Shown piece after piece: positions 3,178 to 55,708 of a stretch of DNA of 64,000 nt. This stretch comes from Naumannella cuiyingiana (GTDB lineage: Bacteria > Actinomycetota > Actinomycetes > Propionibacteriales > Propionibacteriaceae). The position numbers were made by a program, and so were the translations under genes. Within the stretch, counting starts at the first letter, position 1. Each line of letters begins with the position of its first letter. The stretch spans positions 2,480,001 to 2,544,000 of the forward strand of contig NZ_JACBZS010000001.1 in the NCBI RefSeq assembly GCF_013408305.1, read 5' to 3'. The notes under the pieces are model-generated. The model saw only the letters and a list, made by a program, of their open reading frames with translations, searched no databases and had not been told where the DNA came from.

Positions 3178-3396
3178 GTCTCGGCGGGCTCGACCCGCCT
3201 ATGTCTCGGCGGGCTCGACCGGCGTATGCGCATCCTCGTGCCGAAAGTGACCACTGGTCGGGGTTTGGGCGGGCTCGGGGGTGAAGTAGCGGCCAGAACT
3301 CGGGCGAGTGGTCGGTTTGGGCGAGCGGCGACGTCTCGACGGGCTCGACCGGCGCATGTCTCGGCAGGCTGATCGGCGAGGTCTCGACCGGGCTGG
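3178..3396. repeat. Clustered copies of a 25-bp GTCTCGRCGGGCTCGACC-type repeat
   Basis: The 254-bp gap between the secreted hydrolase and the VOC gene is filled by repeats. Two adjacent 25-bp units (3178-3202 and 3203-3227) begin GTCTCGGCGGGCTCGACC and differ at few positions. A third (3333-3357) has GTCTCGACGGGCTCGACC, and two degenerate units follow (3358-3380, 3381-3396), the last ending at the VOC stop codon. Between them a second motif, GGTCGGNTTTGGGCG, occurs twice. Repeats of this type are common in intergenic DNA of related actinobacteria as far as I know; their function is not established. Confidence 0.7.
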
Positions 3397-26044: not shown

Positions 26045-26965
26045 GTGGTCTCCGAGGTCGTTGTGAACCGGGTCGTGGTGCGCGTACCCGCCAAGATCAA
26101 CTTGTCGCTCGCGGTCGGCGCGCGGGCGGCCGACGGCTACCACCCGCTGGCCACCGTCTTCGAGGCGGTGTCGCTGTTCGACGAGGTGCACGCCGAGGAG
26201 TTCGACGGCGACGGGATCGACGTGCTGGTTGCCGGGGCCGGGGCAGAATCCGTGCCGACCGGCGAGGACAATCTGGCGGTCCGGGCCGCCCGGCTGCTCG
26301 CCGAGCGCTACGACATCGAGCTGGCCGGGCTGGCGCTGACGCTGCGCAAGGCCATTCCGACGGCCGGCGGGATGGCGGGCGGGTCGGCCGACGCCGCCGG
26401 CACGCTGCTCGCCTGTTCGGTGCTGTGGGACATCGACATCGACGCCGATGAGATGCGGGACCTGGCGGCCGAGCTCGGCAGCGATGTGCCGTTCGCCCTG
26501 CTCGGCGGGACCGCCATCGGCACCGGCCGGGGCACCGAACTCGTCCCCGTGCTGAGCCGGGGGCGGCGGCACTGGGTGCTGGTGTTCGACAACGACGGCC
26601 TGTCGACGGCGGACGTCTATCGGCGCTACGACGAGCTGCGGCCGAAGGGTTCCGAGCTCGCCGTGCCCGACGAGCTGATGAACGCGCTCACCGCCGGCTC
26701 CGTCGTGGACCTCGCTCCCGCCCTGCGCAACGACCTGGCCGAGGCGGCCATCGACCTGCGGCCCGATCTCGAAGACCTCCTCGCCCGCGGCGTCGAGGCC
26801 GGCGCCCTGGCCGGGATGATCAGCGGCTCCGGGCCGACCTGCGCCTTCTTGTGCCGCGACGAGTCCACCGCGATCGATGTCTCCGGCCGGCTCGCCCGCG
26901 ACGGCGCCGGTGATCGGGTACGCCGGGTCGTCGGCCCCGCCCACGGCGCCCGCCTGCTCGGCTGA
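26045..26965 (+). CDS. ispE: 4-diphosphocytidyl-2-C-methyl-D-erythritol kinase
   Basis: A 306-residue GHMP kinase of the non-mevalonate isoprenoid pathway. It has RVPAKINLSLAVGARAADGYHPLATVF at the start, the ATP-binding loop IPTAGGMAGGSADAAGTLLA, LGSDVPFALLGGTAIGTGRG and the C-terminal MISGSGPTCAFL. The start is a GTG 4 bp after the rsmA stop. The enzyme phosphorylates the 2-hydroxyl of CDP-methylerythritol. A perfect long palindrome lies 110 bp downstream and may end the operon. Confidence 0.94.
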   Translation: MVSEVVVNRVVVRVPAKINLSLAVGARAADGYHPLATVFEAVSLFDEVHAEEFDGDGIDVLVAGAGAESVPTGEDNLAVRAARLLAERYDIELAGLALTLRKAIPTAGGMAGGSADAAGTLLACSVLWDIDIDADEMRDLAAELGSDVPFALLGGTAIGTGRGTELVPVLSRGRRHWVLVFDNDGLSTADVYRRYDELRPKGSELAVPDELMNALTAGSVVDLAPALRNDLAEAAIDLRPDLEDLLARGVEAGALAGMISGSGPTCAFLCRDESTAIDVSGRLARDGAGDRVRRVVGPAHGARLLG

Positions 26966-27006
26966 GCCGCGCCCGTCTCCTCGGTCTCCCGCGCTCGCCG
27001 CCCCCG

Positions 27007-27066
27007 CCTCGACCCGCCCGTCTCGGCGCCTCGACCCGCCTCCCGCGCAGACCGCTTCGACCCGCC
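27007..27066. repeat. Three copies of a CCTCGACCCGCC-type motif
   Basis: CCTCGACCCGCC occurs at 27007-27018 and 27029-27040, and CTTCGACCCGCC at 27055-27066, between ispE and the long palindrome. The reverse complement is close to the end of the 25-bp repeats at 3.2 kb. No function is apparent. Confidence 0.5.
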
Positions 27067-27075
27067 TCCCGCCCA

Positions 27076-27142
27076 GAATTGTTTCCGTAGTTATGCCCGC
27101 CAACCGGGACGGTTGGCGGGCATAACTACGGAAACAATTCGG
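27076..27142. repeat. Perfect palindrome (30-bp arms, 5-bp loop) made of an interspersed repeat
   Basis: Arm one (27076-27105) and arm two (27111-27140) are perfect reverse complements around the loop GGGAC. Each arm contains the core that begins GCGGGCATAACT and ends CGGAAACAAT; arm two with two flanking G makes the core 27116-27142. The same core recurs singly at 28202-28228 and 55511-55537. As RNA it could form a very stable hairpin and terminate ispE transcription, though there is no U-tract. It lies 118 bp before the nuclease-like gene. Confidence 0.9.
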
Positions 27143-27260
27143 ATGAGCGCGGATGAGCGGCGGATGAGCGCGGGGGGACACCTTCGCCTCGAGGAGATTC
27201 CCCTGTGGACAACCCGTCTCCGGGGCCCTCGGCGGCGGCGCGATGTTCGAGGATTCGATC

Positions 27261-28199
27261 ATGCGCCCGCCACAACCGCTCCCGGACGACCTCGCCGGGC
27301 ACCCCTTCACCGTTCGTGCGGCCGAGGCCGCCGGCATCAGCCGCAAGCGCCTGCAGGCCTCCGACCTCGTCGCGCCGAGCCGGGGCCTGCGCGTACCCGC
27401 GAACCGCGAGATCGACCTCGCCGAGTACGCGGCGGCCGTCCTGGCCACCACCCCGGACGGCTGGATCTCCCATGTCAGCGCCGCCCAGTTGTACGGGCTC
27501 TGGCTGCCCGCCCGGCTGGTCACCCCGGGCCGGCTGGATGTCTGTCGCGACACCCGGCGCTGGGAGCCGCGGCGCCGGGGCGTGCGCGGTCACACCGCGC
27601 GGATCACCGGCGCGGAGATCGGCGAGCTCGACGGGGTCCGGATCGTCACCCGGCCGCGATGCTGGTTCGACCTGCTGCCGATGCTGCGCCGCGAGGAGGC
27701 GGTGATCATCGGTGACCAGCTCGTCCGGATGCCCCGGCCCCGCATCGAGGACCGGGCGCACCCGTGGGCGGAGTCCGCTGATCTTGAGCAGATCCTGGCG
27801 CTCAACGAGTGGCGTCCCGGGGTCGTGCTCGGCCGCGAGGCGCTCGGGCTGATCCGCCGCGGATCCGATTCGCCGATGGAGACCCGGCTCCGGCTGGCGA
27901 TCATCGGCGCGGGGCTGGCAGAACCCGAGCTCCAGCTCCGGCTGGATCCGGACGACCCCTACTCTCCCGAGGCCGATCTCGGCTATCGCGCGTACCGCAT
28001 CGCGCTGGACTACGAGGGATCGCACCACCTGAGCCGCGAGCAGCAAAGCCGCGACATCGCGCGTGACGAGACCTGGACACGCGCCAGGTGGCGGCACCTG
28101 CGCTGTGACGTCGCGGACGCCCGGACTGGCTTCCGCAGGGTCATCGAGACCCTGCGCGGCCTGATCCCTCCCGTAGCTGATGCCGCTGTGGGAGCGTGA
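27261..28199 (+). CDS. AbiEi-like HTH plus Vsr-like (DUF559) nuclease-fold protein
   Basis: A 312-residue protein. The N-terminus (LAGHPFTVRAAEAAGISRKRLQASDLVAPSRGLRVPA) resembles the winged-helix part of AbiEi-type antitoxin proteins. The last 100 residues resemble the Vsr/DUF559 PD-(D/E)XK fold: SPMETRLRLAIIGAGLAEPE, Asp in SPEADLGYRAYRIALDYEGSHHLSREQQ... (segment 247-275) with the acidic pair DYE. GAGGA (27250-27254) supports ATG 27261 over ATG 27243. Such proteins are common orphan genes in Actinomycetota; nuclease activity is not shown. The gene is bracketed by copies of an interspersed repeat, at 27116 and 28202, in the same orientation. Confidence 0.72.
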   Translation: MRPPQPLPDDLAGHPFTVRAAEAAGISRKRLQASDLVAPSRGLRVPANREIDLAEYAAAVLATTPDGWISHVSAAQLYGLWLPARLVTPGRLDVCRDTRRWEPRRRGVRGHTARITGAEIGELDGVRIVTRPRCWFDLLPMLRREEAVIIGDQLVRMPRPRIEDRAHPWAESADLEQILALNEWRPGVVLGREALGLIRRGSDSPMETRLRLAIIGAGLAEPELQLRLDPDDPYSPEADLGYRAYRIALDYEGSHHLSREQQSRDIARDETWTRARWRHLRCDVADARTGFRRVIETLRGLIPPVADAAVGA

Positions 28200-28201
28200 C
28201 A

Positions 28202-28228
28202 GCGGGCATAACTGCGGAAACAATCCGG
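28202..28228 (+). repeat. Single copy of the GCGGGCATAACT interspersed repeat
   Basis: Begins 3 bp after the nuclease-like stop codon, in the same orientation as the right arm at 27116. It differs from that arm at two positions (R position G for A, and C for T in AATCCGG). It stands 8 bp before the stop codon of the convergent tam gene. Confidence 0.85.
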
Positions 28229-28236
28229 GTGGGGGG

Positions 28237-29007
28237 TCAGCGACGAGCCCCCGCGCGGGCGACGACGAAGGTCCGCGGGAACGGCAGCCAGGTGCCCTGC
28301 GGGCCCGGAGGGTACGCCTCTCGCAGCGCGGCCCGGTAGCGGGCGACGAACCGCTCGCGCGGCTGCCCGGTGAGCGCCTGCAGCGCCGGGCGGGCGCCGG
28401 TCCCGGCGATCCAGTCGAAGACCGGGTCCTCGCCGGGCAACAGGTGCAGGTAGGTGGTCTGCCAGGCATCGACCGAGCAGCCGGCGGCCAGCAGGATGTC
28501 GGCAGTCTCGCGGGCGTCGAGCACCCGGGTCCGCTCGATGCCTGACACCAGCGGGGCGAACTCCGGGTCGGCCAGCAGCTCGCGCAGCAACCGGTGCAGC
28601 GGCTCGTCGTGATTGGCCGGCACCTGGATCGCGAGCCAACCGTCGTCGGCGAGCAGGTCGACCAGCCGGGGAAGTTGATCTTCGTAGCGCGGAATCCACT
28701 GCAGCGTCGCGTTGGAGACCAGGACGTCGACCGGCCCGGGCGGGGTCCACTCGCGCAGGTCGGCCCGCTCCCACTCGAGCCCGTCGCCTGCCGGCGCCTG
28801 CGCCAGCATCTCGGCGCTGGAGTCCACCCCGATCACCCGCGCGCCGGGCCAGCGCTCGGTGAGGGTCCGGGTCAGGTTGCCGGGACCGCACCCGAGATCG
28901 ACGACCAGACCCGGCTGCCGCGCGCCGATGCGCGCGGTCAGGTCGAAGAACGGCCGGCCGCGCTCGTCTGCATAGCGCAGGTACTGCTCCGCATTCCACA
29001 CCGCCAT
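28237..29007 (-). CDS. tam: Trans-aconitate 2-methyltransferase
   Basis: A 256-residue SAM-dependent methyltransferase matching Tam: VWNAEQYLRYADERGRPFFDL, SAM motif VVDLGCGPGNLTRTLTERWPGARVIGVDSSAEML, VLVSNATLQWIPRYEDQLPRLVDLLADDGWLAIQVPANHDEPLH, VDAWQTTYLHLLPGEDPVFDWIAGTGARP. Tam methylates trans-aconitate, a spontaneous isomer that inhibits aconitase, and so protects the citrate cycle. GGAGG lies 8 bp upstream of the ATG at 29007. The gene is divergent from a MarR-family gene, as tam and tamR are in Streptomyces coelicolor. Confidence 0.9.
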   Translation of the reverse strand: MAVWNAEQYLRYADERGRPFFDLTARIGARQPGLVVDLGCGPGNLTRTLTERWPGARVIGVDSSAEMLAQAPAGDGLEWERADLREWTPPGPVDVLVSNATLQWIPRYEDQLPRLVDLLADDGWLAIQVPANHDEPLHRLLRELLADPEFAPLVSGIERTRVLDARETADILLAAGCSVDAWQTTYLHLLPGEDPVFDWIAGTGARPALQALTGQPRERFVARYRAALREAYPPGPQGTWLPFPRTFVVARAGARR

Positions 29008-29050
29008 CACGCCACCTCCGGATCATCGCCGACCCCGGCCGACAAACTAT

Positions 29051-55479: not shown

Positions 55480-55510
55480 GATCGCCCCGTTCCATCTCGG
55501 CCACCCCACT

Positions 55511-55537
55511 CCGAATTGTTTCCGTAGTTATGCCCGC
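55511..55537 (-). repeat. Third copy of the GCGGGCATAACT interspersed repeat
   Basis: Read on the minus strand, the core beginning GCGGGCATAACT and ending AATTCGG is identical to the 27-bp core at 27116. It lies 32 bp after the fgd stop, in the 229-bp gap before the convergent MFS gene. A weaker related string, GGGCGATAACTGACGAC, occurs at 55668-55684 in the opposite orientation. The rest of the gap holds nothing else recognisable. Confidence 0.85.
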
Positions 55538-55708
55538 TCCGAGCCCCGGATGGCGGCATCATCTGCGGTCGAGAACGCGACGAGCGTCGCCAGCTGCGGT
55601 ACGCCGGCGCGGCCCGAGGTGCCTCCGATCTCGTCGTGAGCTTTCGCCGCCCGGAGCCGCTTCCAGGGGGCGATAACTGACGACACGACTCGGCGGGCGA
55701 GGGCCGAG

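Follow-up and report, generated by a model that had tools for sequence, protein, structure and literature searches.

AbiEi-type, nuclease-like genes bracketed by palindromes of their own: a candidate chromosomal module in a large bacterial class

Introduction

Does a gene for a nuclease-like protein in Naumannella cuiyingiana form a unit with the repeats on its two sides, and if it does, what kind of unit would this be? The gene lies in a stretch of 64,000 nucleotides, here called the window (contig NZ_JACBZS010000001.1, positions 2,480,001 to 2,544,000). A preliminary description had pointed to a 27-bp repeat core on either side of the gene, and had suggested that the protein moves the repeat as RAYT enzymes move REP sequences, or that the repeats are excision ends or operators. 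Earlier work offers two points of reference. AbiEi antitoxins bind inverted repeats in their own promoter (PMC7319586), and a Vsr-like DUF559 protein of Caulobacter has been linked to DNA damage, with no mention of palindromes in that context (PMC12907096).

Gene, Neighbors and Palindromes at the Window Locus

The gene occupies 27261..28199 on the + strand and encodes 312 aa when read from the ATG at 27261; a second in-frame ATG lies at 27243. To its left is a GHMP kinase gene (26045-26965, + strand) and to its right a methyltransferase gene (28237-29010, - strand), which Pfam assigns to the general SAM-dependent type, an assignment that does not imply DNA as the substrate. The 27-bp cores lie where the preliminary description had placed them, at 27116-27142 and 28202-28228, in the same orientation and with two differences; 118 bp separate the first core from ATG 27261, and the second begins 3 bp past the stop codon (28199). 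They had been called direct copies, which holds for their orientation, but each core is a single arm of a 75-nt palindrome, so that the direct orientation means little.

These palindromes, designated type A, have a fixed geometry (arm of 22, loop of 15, arm of 22) and are assigned no strand. The upstream bracket (27071..27145) scores 89.8 bits with a covariance model and holds a 31-bp perfect inverted repeat (27076-27106/27110-27140). The downstream bracket (28157..28231) is asymmetric, its left arm having diverged, and scores 67 bits on the - strand; it overlaps the last codons of the window gene and lies 5 bp past the stop codon of the methyltransferase gene on the - strand. Two copies had been counted in the window, and both are real, but a third is present, a solitary asymmetric palindrome at 55508..55582 (60.5 bits). 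This third copy lies 28 bp downstream of a + strand ORF. Between the upstream palindrome and the gene, at 27204..27212 on the - strand, is an exact match to TTGTCCACA, which we take to be the DnaA-box consensus.

The Palindrome in Its Own Genome

At up to three mismatches, the 22-bp arm GCGGGCATAACTACGGAAACAA had four matches in the window and none in any of 100 shuffles, and a genome-wide search at the same tolerance, of the kind that the preliminary description had proposed, returned 26 matches vs. none for the reversed control pattern. The covariance model puts the number of type-A places in the genome at about 18. These are the 17 sequences from which the model was built, themselves found by pattern, plus a place at 871170 that is A-like; the count leaves out two borderline hits of the model (989062 and 1424386). 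Among the 17 aligned copies, changes on both sides of the palindrome occurred in 39 cells vs. 25.1 in shuffles (reached by 0/500), while the number of pairs affected was less striking, being reached by 27/500 shuffles. Eight of the 15 type-A loci away from the gene lie between convergent ORFs as judged with a crude ORF caller.

Suitable hairpins and many copies at gene ends fit a terminator reading, but intrinsic terminators alone were rejected as an explanation: no T-run was seen by eye after the hairpins, and gene-specific families would be left unexplained. A known RNA was also set aside, the Rfam hits within 26800-28500 all being below the gathering score. Several asymmetric type-A copies have a more stable RNA fold in one orientation because of G-U pairs, and in about 7/9 copies the RNA-favored orientation is the sense of the gene ending beside it, as if the asymmetric copies also acted as 3′ hairpins. 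The elements at C1:999006 and C1:2562983 are nearly identical, their nearest flanks included, which suggests that one was copied recently or that a longer segment was duplicated.

The Protein Family

The N-terminal region of the window protein (residues 16-138, 27306..27674 on the + strand) resembles AbiEi, matching the PADLOC model PDLC02249 at E 6.7e-11. At the N-terminus, 27/30 aligned family members are matched by PADLOC AbiEi models, PDLC02249 being the model concerned, and Pfam AbiEi_4 matches 9/30. Toward the C-terminus lies a putative PD-(D/E)XK-like nuclease core (residues 204-270, 27870..28070 on the + strand) with acids at 207, 239, and 252. E207, D/E239, and D/E252 are each conserved in 65/65 aligned members, as expected of an active PD-(D/E)XK enzyme. 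Pfam MTES_1575 and DUF559 have C-terminal matches in three of 30 members each, the best at 6.7e-06 and 5.2e-05, respectively; the window protein itself reaches E 0.23-0.24 with these families and falls short of the 0.01 cut-off. On the basis of these weak family matches together with the conserved acids, the C-terminal part is probably a PD-(D/E)XK nuclease. An AlphaFold model built from six sequences had a mean pLDDT of 38, and a profile search of the PDB gave a single match, 3hrl_A at E 0.8.

Plasmid or phage cargo was considered and rejected: among 72,556 plasmid records and 50,697 phage records, the window protein matched six and one, respectively. None of the 30 members matched PHROG, and no relative was confirmed in two pattern-based scans of viral contigs. 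The nuclease family thus looks chromosomal as far as these record searches go.

Two Surveys of Bracketing

A search with an alignment of five paralogs from the genome of origin found the family in 30/37 genomes of the order at E <= 1e-10, with up to 16 members per genome. The first survey covered 65 loci, namely the five own-genome loci and 60 newly fetched from about 150 listed matches, mostly the best-scoring ones; the 60 include one further locus of the own genome (L178) and one with 136 bp on one side (L161), which was kept. For each gene, 450 bp on the left were aligned to 450 bp on the right, and a locus was called bracketed when its score exceeded 20.4, the 99th percentile of 522 control windows of the same geometry (median 12.5). 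The median flank-to-flank score of the 65 family loci was 31.5. Fifty of the 65 family genes, from 24 genomes, were bracketed (47/60 without the five loci that gave rise to the idea) vs. 1/61 non-family genes in the same loci. A hairpin score of at least 14 within 300 bp was found for 35/65 family genes vs. 5/367 control pairs. In the 50 bracketed loci, the median distance is 121.5 bp from the end of the upstream copy to the profile start and 5 bp from the stop codon to the beginning of the downstream copy; the better alignment was direct for 26 pairs and inverted for 24, and 28 passed in both orientations.

The family was also found in 111/148 genomes and 68/82 genera of a class-wide sample (E <= 1e-15). 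From the class we drew a later set, with the cut-off fixed beforehand, in which 28 loci were read and 27 were usable, L221 being dropped as too short. Four of the 28 (L225, L235, L240, and L244) belong to a second family within the order already surveyed; the others represent other parts of the class. Here 21/27 genes were bracketed vs. 10/702 mismatched left/right pairs. The preliminary description had named unassociated repeat copies and flankless orthologs as the pattern that would speak against it, and the surveys mostly gave the opposite, with 50/65 and 21/27 bracketed, though 15/65 loci in the order set and 6/27 in the later set fall below the threshold. These counts (50/65 and 21/27 vs. 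1/61 and 10/702) refute the idea that a dispersed repeat and a single gene lie together by chance, which keeps next to no probability. At the level of sequence, the association is established in two surveys: the gene and the repeat belong together.

A scan of contigs with the window protein found five mycobacterial relatives (L074-L078). Matching repeats lie on both sides of L074 (score 28.5) and L076 (27.0), while L075, L077, and L078 are at background.

A DnaA-Box-Like Site Upstream

The box found at the window locus recurs across the family. Exact TTRTCCACA is present upstream of 32/65 family genes, downstream of 0/65, and in 0/1056 control windows; with up to one mismatch it is present upstream of 55/65 vs. 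28/1056 control windows. Regions upstream of other ORFs had the exact box in 0/173 cases and the box with up to one mismatch in 11/173. In the later set, it occurs upstream of 10/27 genes exactly and 21/27 at up to one mismatch (controls, 0/188 and 2/188, respectively). We infer that DnaA binds at the upstream box and that the site has a role in the module. An exact DnaA-box-like site also lies upstream of the mycobacterial L074, L075, and L077.

Paralogs, Specificity and Dispersal of the Brackets

The own genome carries further members of the family with repeats of other kinds. The paralog at C1:1240788-1241702 is 58% identical to the window gene and is bracketed by a palindrome, type B, whose sequence is unlike type A (at 1240651 and, weakly, at 1241719) and which occurs at seven places in the genome. 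Three further paralogs (C, D, and E) have repeats on both sides. The brackets of paralog D have a third sequence, one being a perfect palindrome and the other a 96% palindrome; three further copies lie at a distance, giving type D five places in the genome. Paralog E has two imperfect palindromes, and type E is confined to these two, with no other clear copy. Paralog C adjoins a short repeat with 41 own-genome hits at E < 0.01, its upstream flank being a weak match; paralogs C and E each had a flank alignment score of 19.5, just below the 20.4 cut-off. The idea of a lone repeat near a lone gene was dropped once the 58% paralog proved to be bracketed by a different palindrome and the surveys had given the counts above. 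The type-C repeat flanks the family gene C1:2733300-2734199 and is clustered, e.g., near C1:2923000 and 2128000. A copy of it lies within the window at 3294-3323 (90% identical, E 1.5e-4).

When 16 bracket palindromes taken from five genomes were searched together against the same five, 219 matches resulted. Each of the 150 matches listed falls in the same genome as the gene to which the bracket belongs. The search scored 40 candidates per genome, and among the matches listed the number of places per bracket ranged from about 1 to 22, the brackets themselves included; places were merged by rounding, so these copy numbers are approximate lower bounds. Brackets of L152, L176, L158, and L205 had 1-2 places each among the matches listed. 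Dispersal is therefore clear for most brackets, not all.

Similarity of brackets was nearly independent of protein identity over all pairs (rho 0.06) and followed it weakly within genomes (rho 0.23, permutation p 0.002). A smooth co-divergence of protein and bracket was rejected, since only close relatives share brackets. Eighteen non-syntenic pairs with 55-73% identity, 15 of which lie within one genome, had bracket scores close to background (11.5-20.5). Five pairs of syntenic orthologs with 58-71% identity had bracket scores of 18, 23, 40, 58, and 64.5 (synteny being judged from 3 kb on each side of the gene). Brackets of L219, L222, L227, L232, and L234 (family f23), L229 (f34), L230 (f24), and L233 (f27) share a core like GATCATGG or GTTGATCTTGG; with a core common to several genomes, one type of bracket can evidently be retained, or arise again, in different bacterial families.

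Presence, Absence and Turnover of the Unit

In one genus of the order, family members lie at a syntenic site flanked by a metallo-beta-lactamase-fold gene and a Crp-like gene (the latter named by eye). The 30 genomes examined at this site comprise 24 with the nuclease, four that are vacant, and two in which contig ends intervene. The 24 filled sites include one inverted unit, one truncated unit, and two of another subtype, and the Crp-like gene was seen in 20 of them (not in L251, L252, L254, and L256). We compared brackets in 18 of the 24, omitting L251, L253, L256, and L268 (other subtype, inversion, or truncation) and also L252 and L254, in which the Crp gene lies outside the compared stretch. 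The median similarity between upstream and downstream brackets of the same genome was 35 in the 18 loci. Orthologous upstream brackets compared with one another had a median of 9, but these were aligned in a single orientation, whereas upstream-downstream pairs were tried in both, to the advantage of the latter; the like-for-like control is the cross-genome upstream-downstream comparison, with a median of 12. The same-genome score exceeded the median ortholog score in 18/18 loci, was below 20.4 in four of them (L247, L255, L259, and L274), and was surpassed by the best single ortholog as a match to the upstream bracket in 9/18. Either the two bracket copies were homogenized over longer times, or units were repeatedly replaced.

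Of the 28 genomes that are informative, four lack the unit precisely. In these four the stop codons of the neighboring genes abut or overlap, and a tree of the neighboring gene requires four separate changes to account for them. The preliminary description had looked to empty sites retaining one copy of the repeat; the four vacant sites of this one unit keep no bracket copy, and excision that leaves one copy behind fits poorly, there being no bracket at the vacant sites. Solitary palindromes, too, may be present in one species and absent from another. Nine of them, namely those of one genome's copies whose flanks were available, were traced between two related species, with five shared, one replaced by other sequence, and three precisely absent (160 vs. 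4 bp, 147 vs. 7, and 334 vs. 16). When features of insertion sequences were checked, palindromic ends were present, and no target-site duplication was recognized by eye at four solitary sites or at the vacant sites of the unit. With no bracket copy and no target-site duplication there, loss by deletion is possible, and the presence/absence patterns do not distinguish gain from loss. Stop codons at either end of the insert in occupied L301, the counterpart of vacant L307, are arranged as mirror images (CTGACCCCC ... GGGGGGTCAG), and the palindromy may thus extend into the target.

Proposed Mechanism and Alternatives

Our reading, to which we give a probability of roughly 0.5, is that the gene and its brackets make up a module whose own palindrome is recognized by the AbiEi domain, cut by the nuclease, and copied or homogenized by repair. 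It builds on patterns visible in the sequences themselves, namely bracketing, brackets specific to the gene, precise presence or absence of the unit, and copies that match within a genome while many orthologous copies differ; dispersal in the own genome is seen for most of the palindrome families tested. From these patterns we infer binding, cutting, and mobilization by the AbiEi-nuclease protein. The N-terminal domain would most likely recognize the module's own palindrome, because AbiEi antitoxins bind inverted repeats, and the nuclease would most likely nick or cut it, possibly as a hairpin or cruciform during replication. Repair, strand transfer, or gene conversion would then carry the palindrome to new intergenic sites and also maintain the likeness between the two copies that flank the gene. 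Those flanking copies would serve as both module ends and operator, and the solitary palindromes would be its non-autonomous offspring. Since the promoter region contains a DnaA-box-like site, expression or activity of the module may be linked to replication. A wider version of this proposal, which we hold more tentatively, is that AbiEi-guided PD-(D/E)XK modules throughout the class propagate palindromes of their own as an independent counterpart of REP-RAYT, with switches of recognition after duplication, which would prevent cross-reaction among the paralogs of one genome, and a tie to replication through the DnaA box.

Other readings account for part of the data. It is possible, though in our view unlikely, that the protein is an autoregulated nuclease of defense or repair, that the AbiEi domain represses its gene, that the palindromes are operators and bidirectional terminators, and that solitary copies are sites of a similar operator or terminator kind beside other genes, spread by ordinary duplication. 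Autoregulation of AbiEi antitoxins through inverted repeats (PMC7319586) would be a precedent. The position of the upstream copy within the promoter (ending a median of 121.5 bp ahead of the profile start in 50 loci), the 8/15 type-A loci away from the gene that lie between convergent ORFs, and the better fold of several asymmetric copies in one RNA orientation all agree with such a role. What it leaves unexplained is the match between upstream and downstream copies together with their joint divergence between many species, as well as the confinement of the listed matches of 16 brackets to their own genome.

We regard as improbable a homing-like element, in which the nuclease would cut vacant sites between convergent genes, repair would copy the unit in, and the brackets would be recognition ends. 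One and the same site holding different nuclease subtypes, once reversed, and vacant in four lineages is what homing could produce, but the four vacant sites are unlike the palindrome (by eye) and solitary palindromes without the gene are common. There is a similarly small chance that a host process, such as template switching or an unlinked transposase, spreads the palindromes while the nuclease gene is tolerated among them or preys on them. Palindromes are subject to hairpin-templated editing, and the paired changes within copies are what hairpin-templated correction would give; against this, matching brackets surround the gene in 45 genomes (24 + 21), and a motif is common to the upstream regions of the family genes.

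Comparison With Known Systems

Among known systems, the module proposed here would work most like REP-RAYT (REPtron), yet it is no REPtron by the features tested. The preliminary description had drawn the RAYT comparison, and the architecture does fit as an analogy; the enzyme, AbiEi plus PD-(D/E)XK-like, is unrelated. A REPtron combines REPs with an HuH transposase and its repeats carry a GTAG tag (PMC8266576). Likenesses to that account are a chromosomal gene adjoining palindromes dispersed in its own genome (not for every bracket; type E, L158, and L205 are exceptions), enzyme-specific palindromes, intergenic copies, and the occurrence of both imperfect and perfect palindromes (PMC8266576). 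The differences begin with the enzyme, which is HuH (Y1) in REP/RAYT, whereas members of the present family match AbiEi and REase models; no match to Y1 transposase PF01797 was found in the own genome, in a search whose control was positive in 5/14 genomes. The brackets show no conserved GTAG tag in front of the palindrome, GTAG or CTAC occurring anywhere in 11/50 upstream brackets. The tnpA-REP gene is described as mostly single copy and without evidence of mobility, whereas here there are several genes per genome, up to 16, and a unit that is precisely present or absent at one site (PMC8266576). Enzyme, tag, copy number, and mobility pattern all differ from the REPtron, and the architecture is alike.

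Other systems share single parts with it. The AbiE type IV toxin-antitoxin system has the AbiEi-like N-terminal domain in common (27/30 members) and differs in that the C-terminus here is nuclease-like; at the window locus, where the neighbors are the GHMP kinase and methyltransferase genes, no DUF1814 (AbiEii) toxin gene lies beside the window gene. DUF559/Vsr-like endonucleases share the conserved PD-(D/E)XK-type acids; the methyltransferase gene beside the window gene is of the general SAM-dependent type. With IS200/IS605-type elements and MITEs the present elements share small size, ends that are palindromic, and vacant sites that are precise, features typical of MITEs, but no Y1 transposase was found in the own genome and no target-site duplication was recognized. 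In the open-access literature searched, we recognized no description of the association. The pairing of an enzyme with a repeat of its own looks like an undescribed system of one large bacterial class.

Implications

If the reading is correct, it would explain where many of the palindromes scattered through these genomes came from, and a family present in 68/82 sampled genera of the class would be given a role. Most close paralogs within a genome have unrelated palindromes, and they would thus constitute a natural set of protein/palindrome pairs for decoding DNA recognition. It would also mean that a REP-RAYT way of life has evolved on more than one occasion, each time around an unrelated enzyme.
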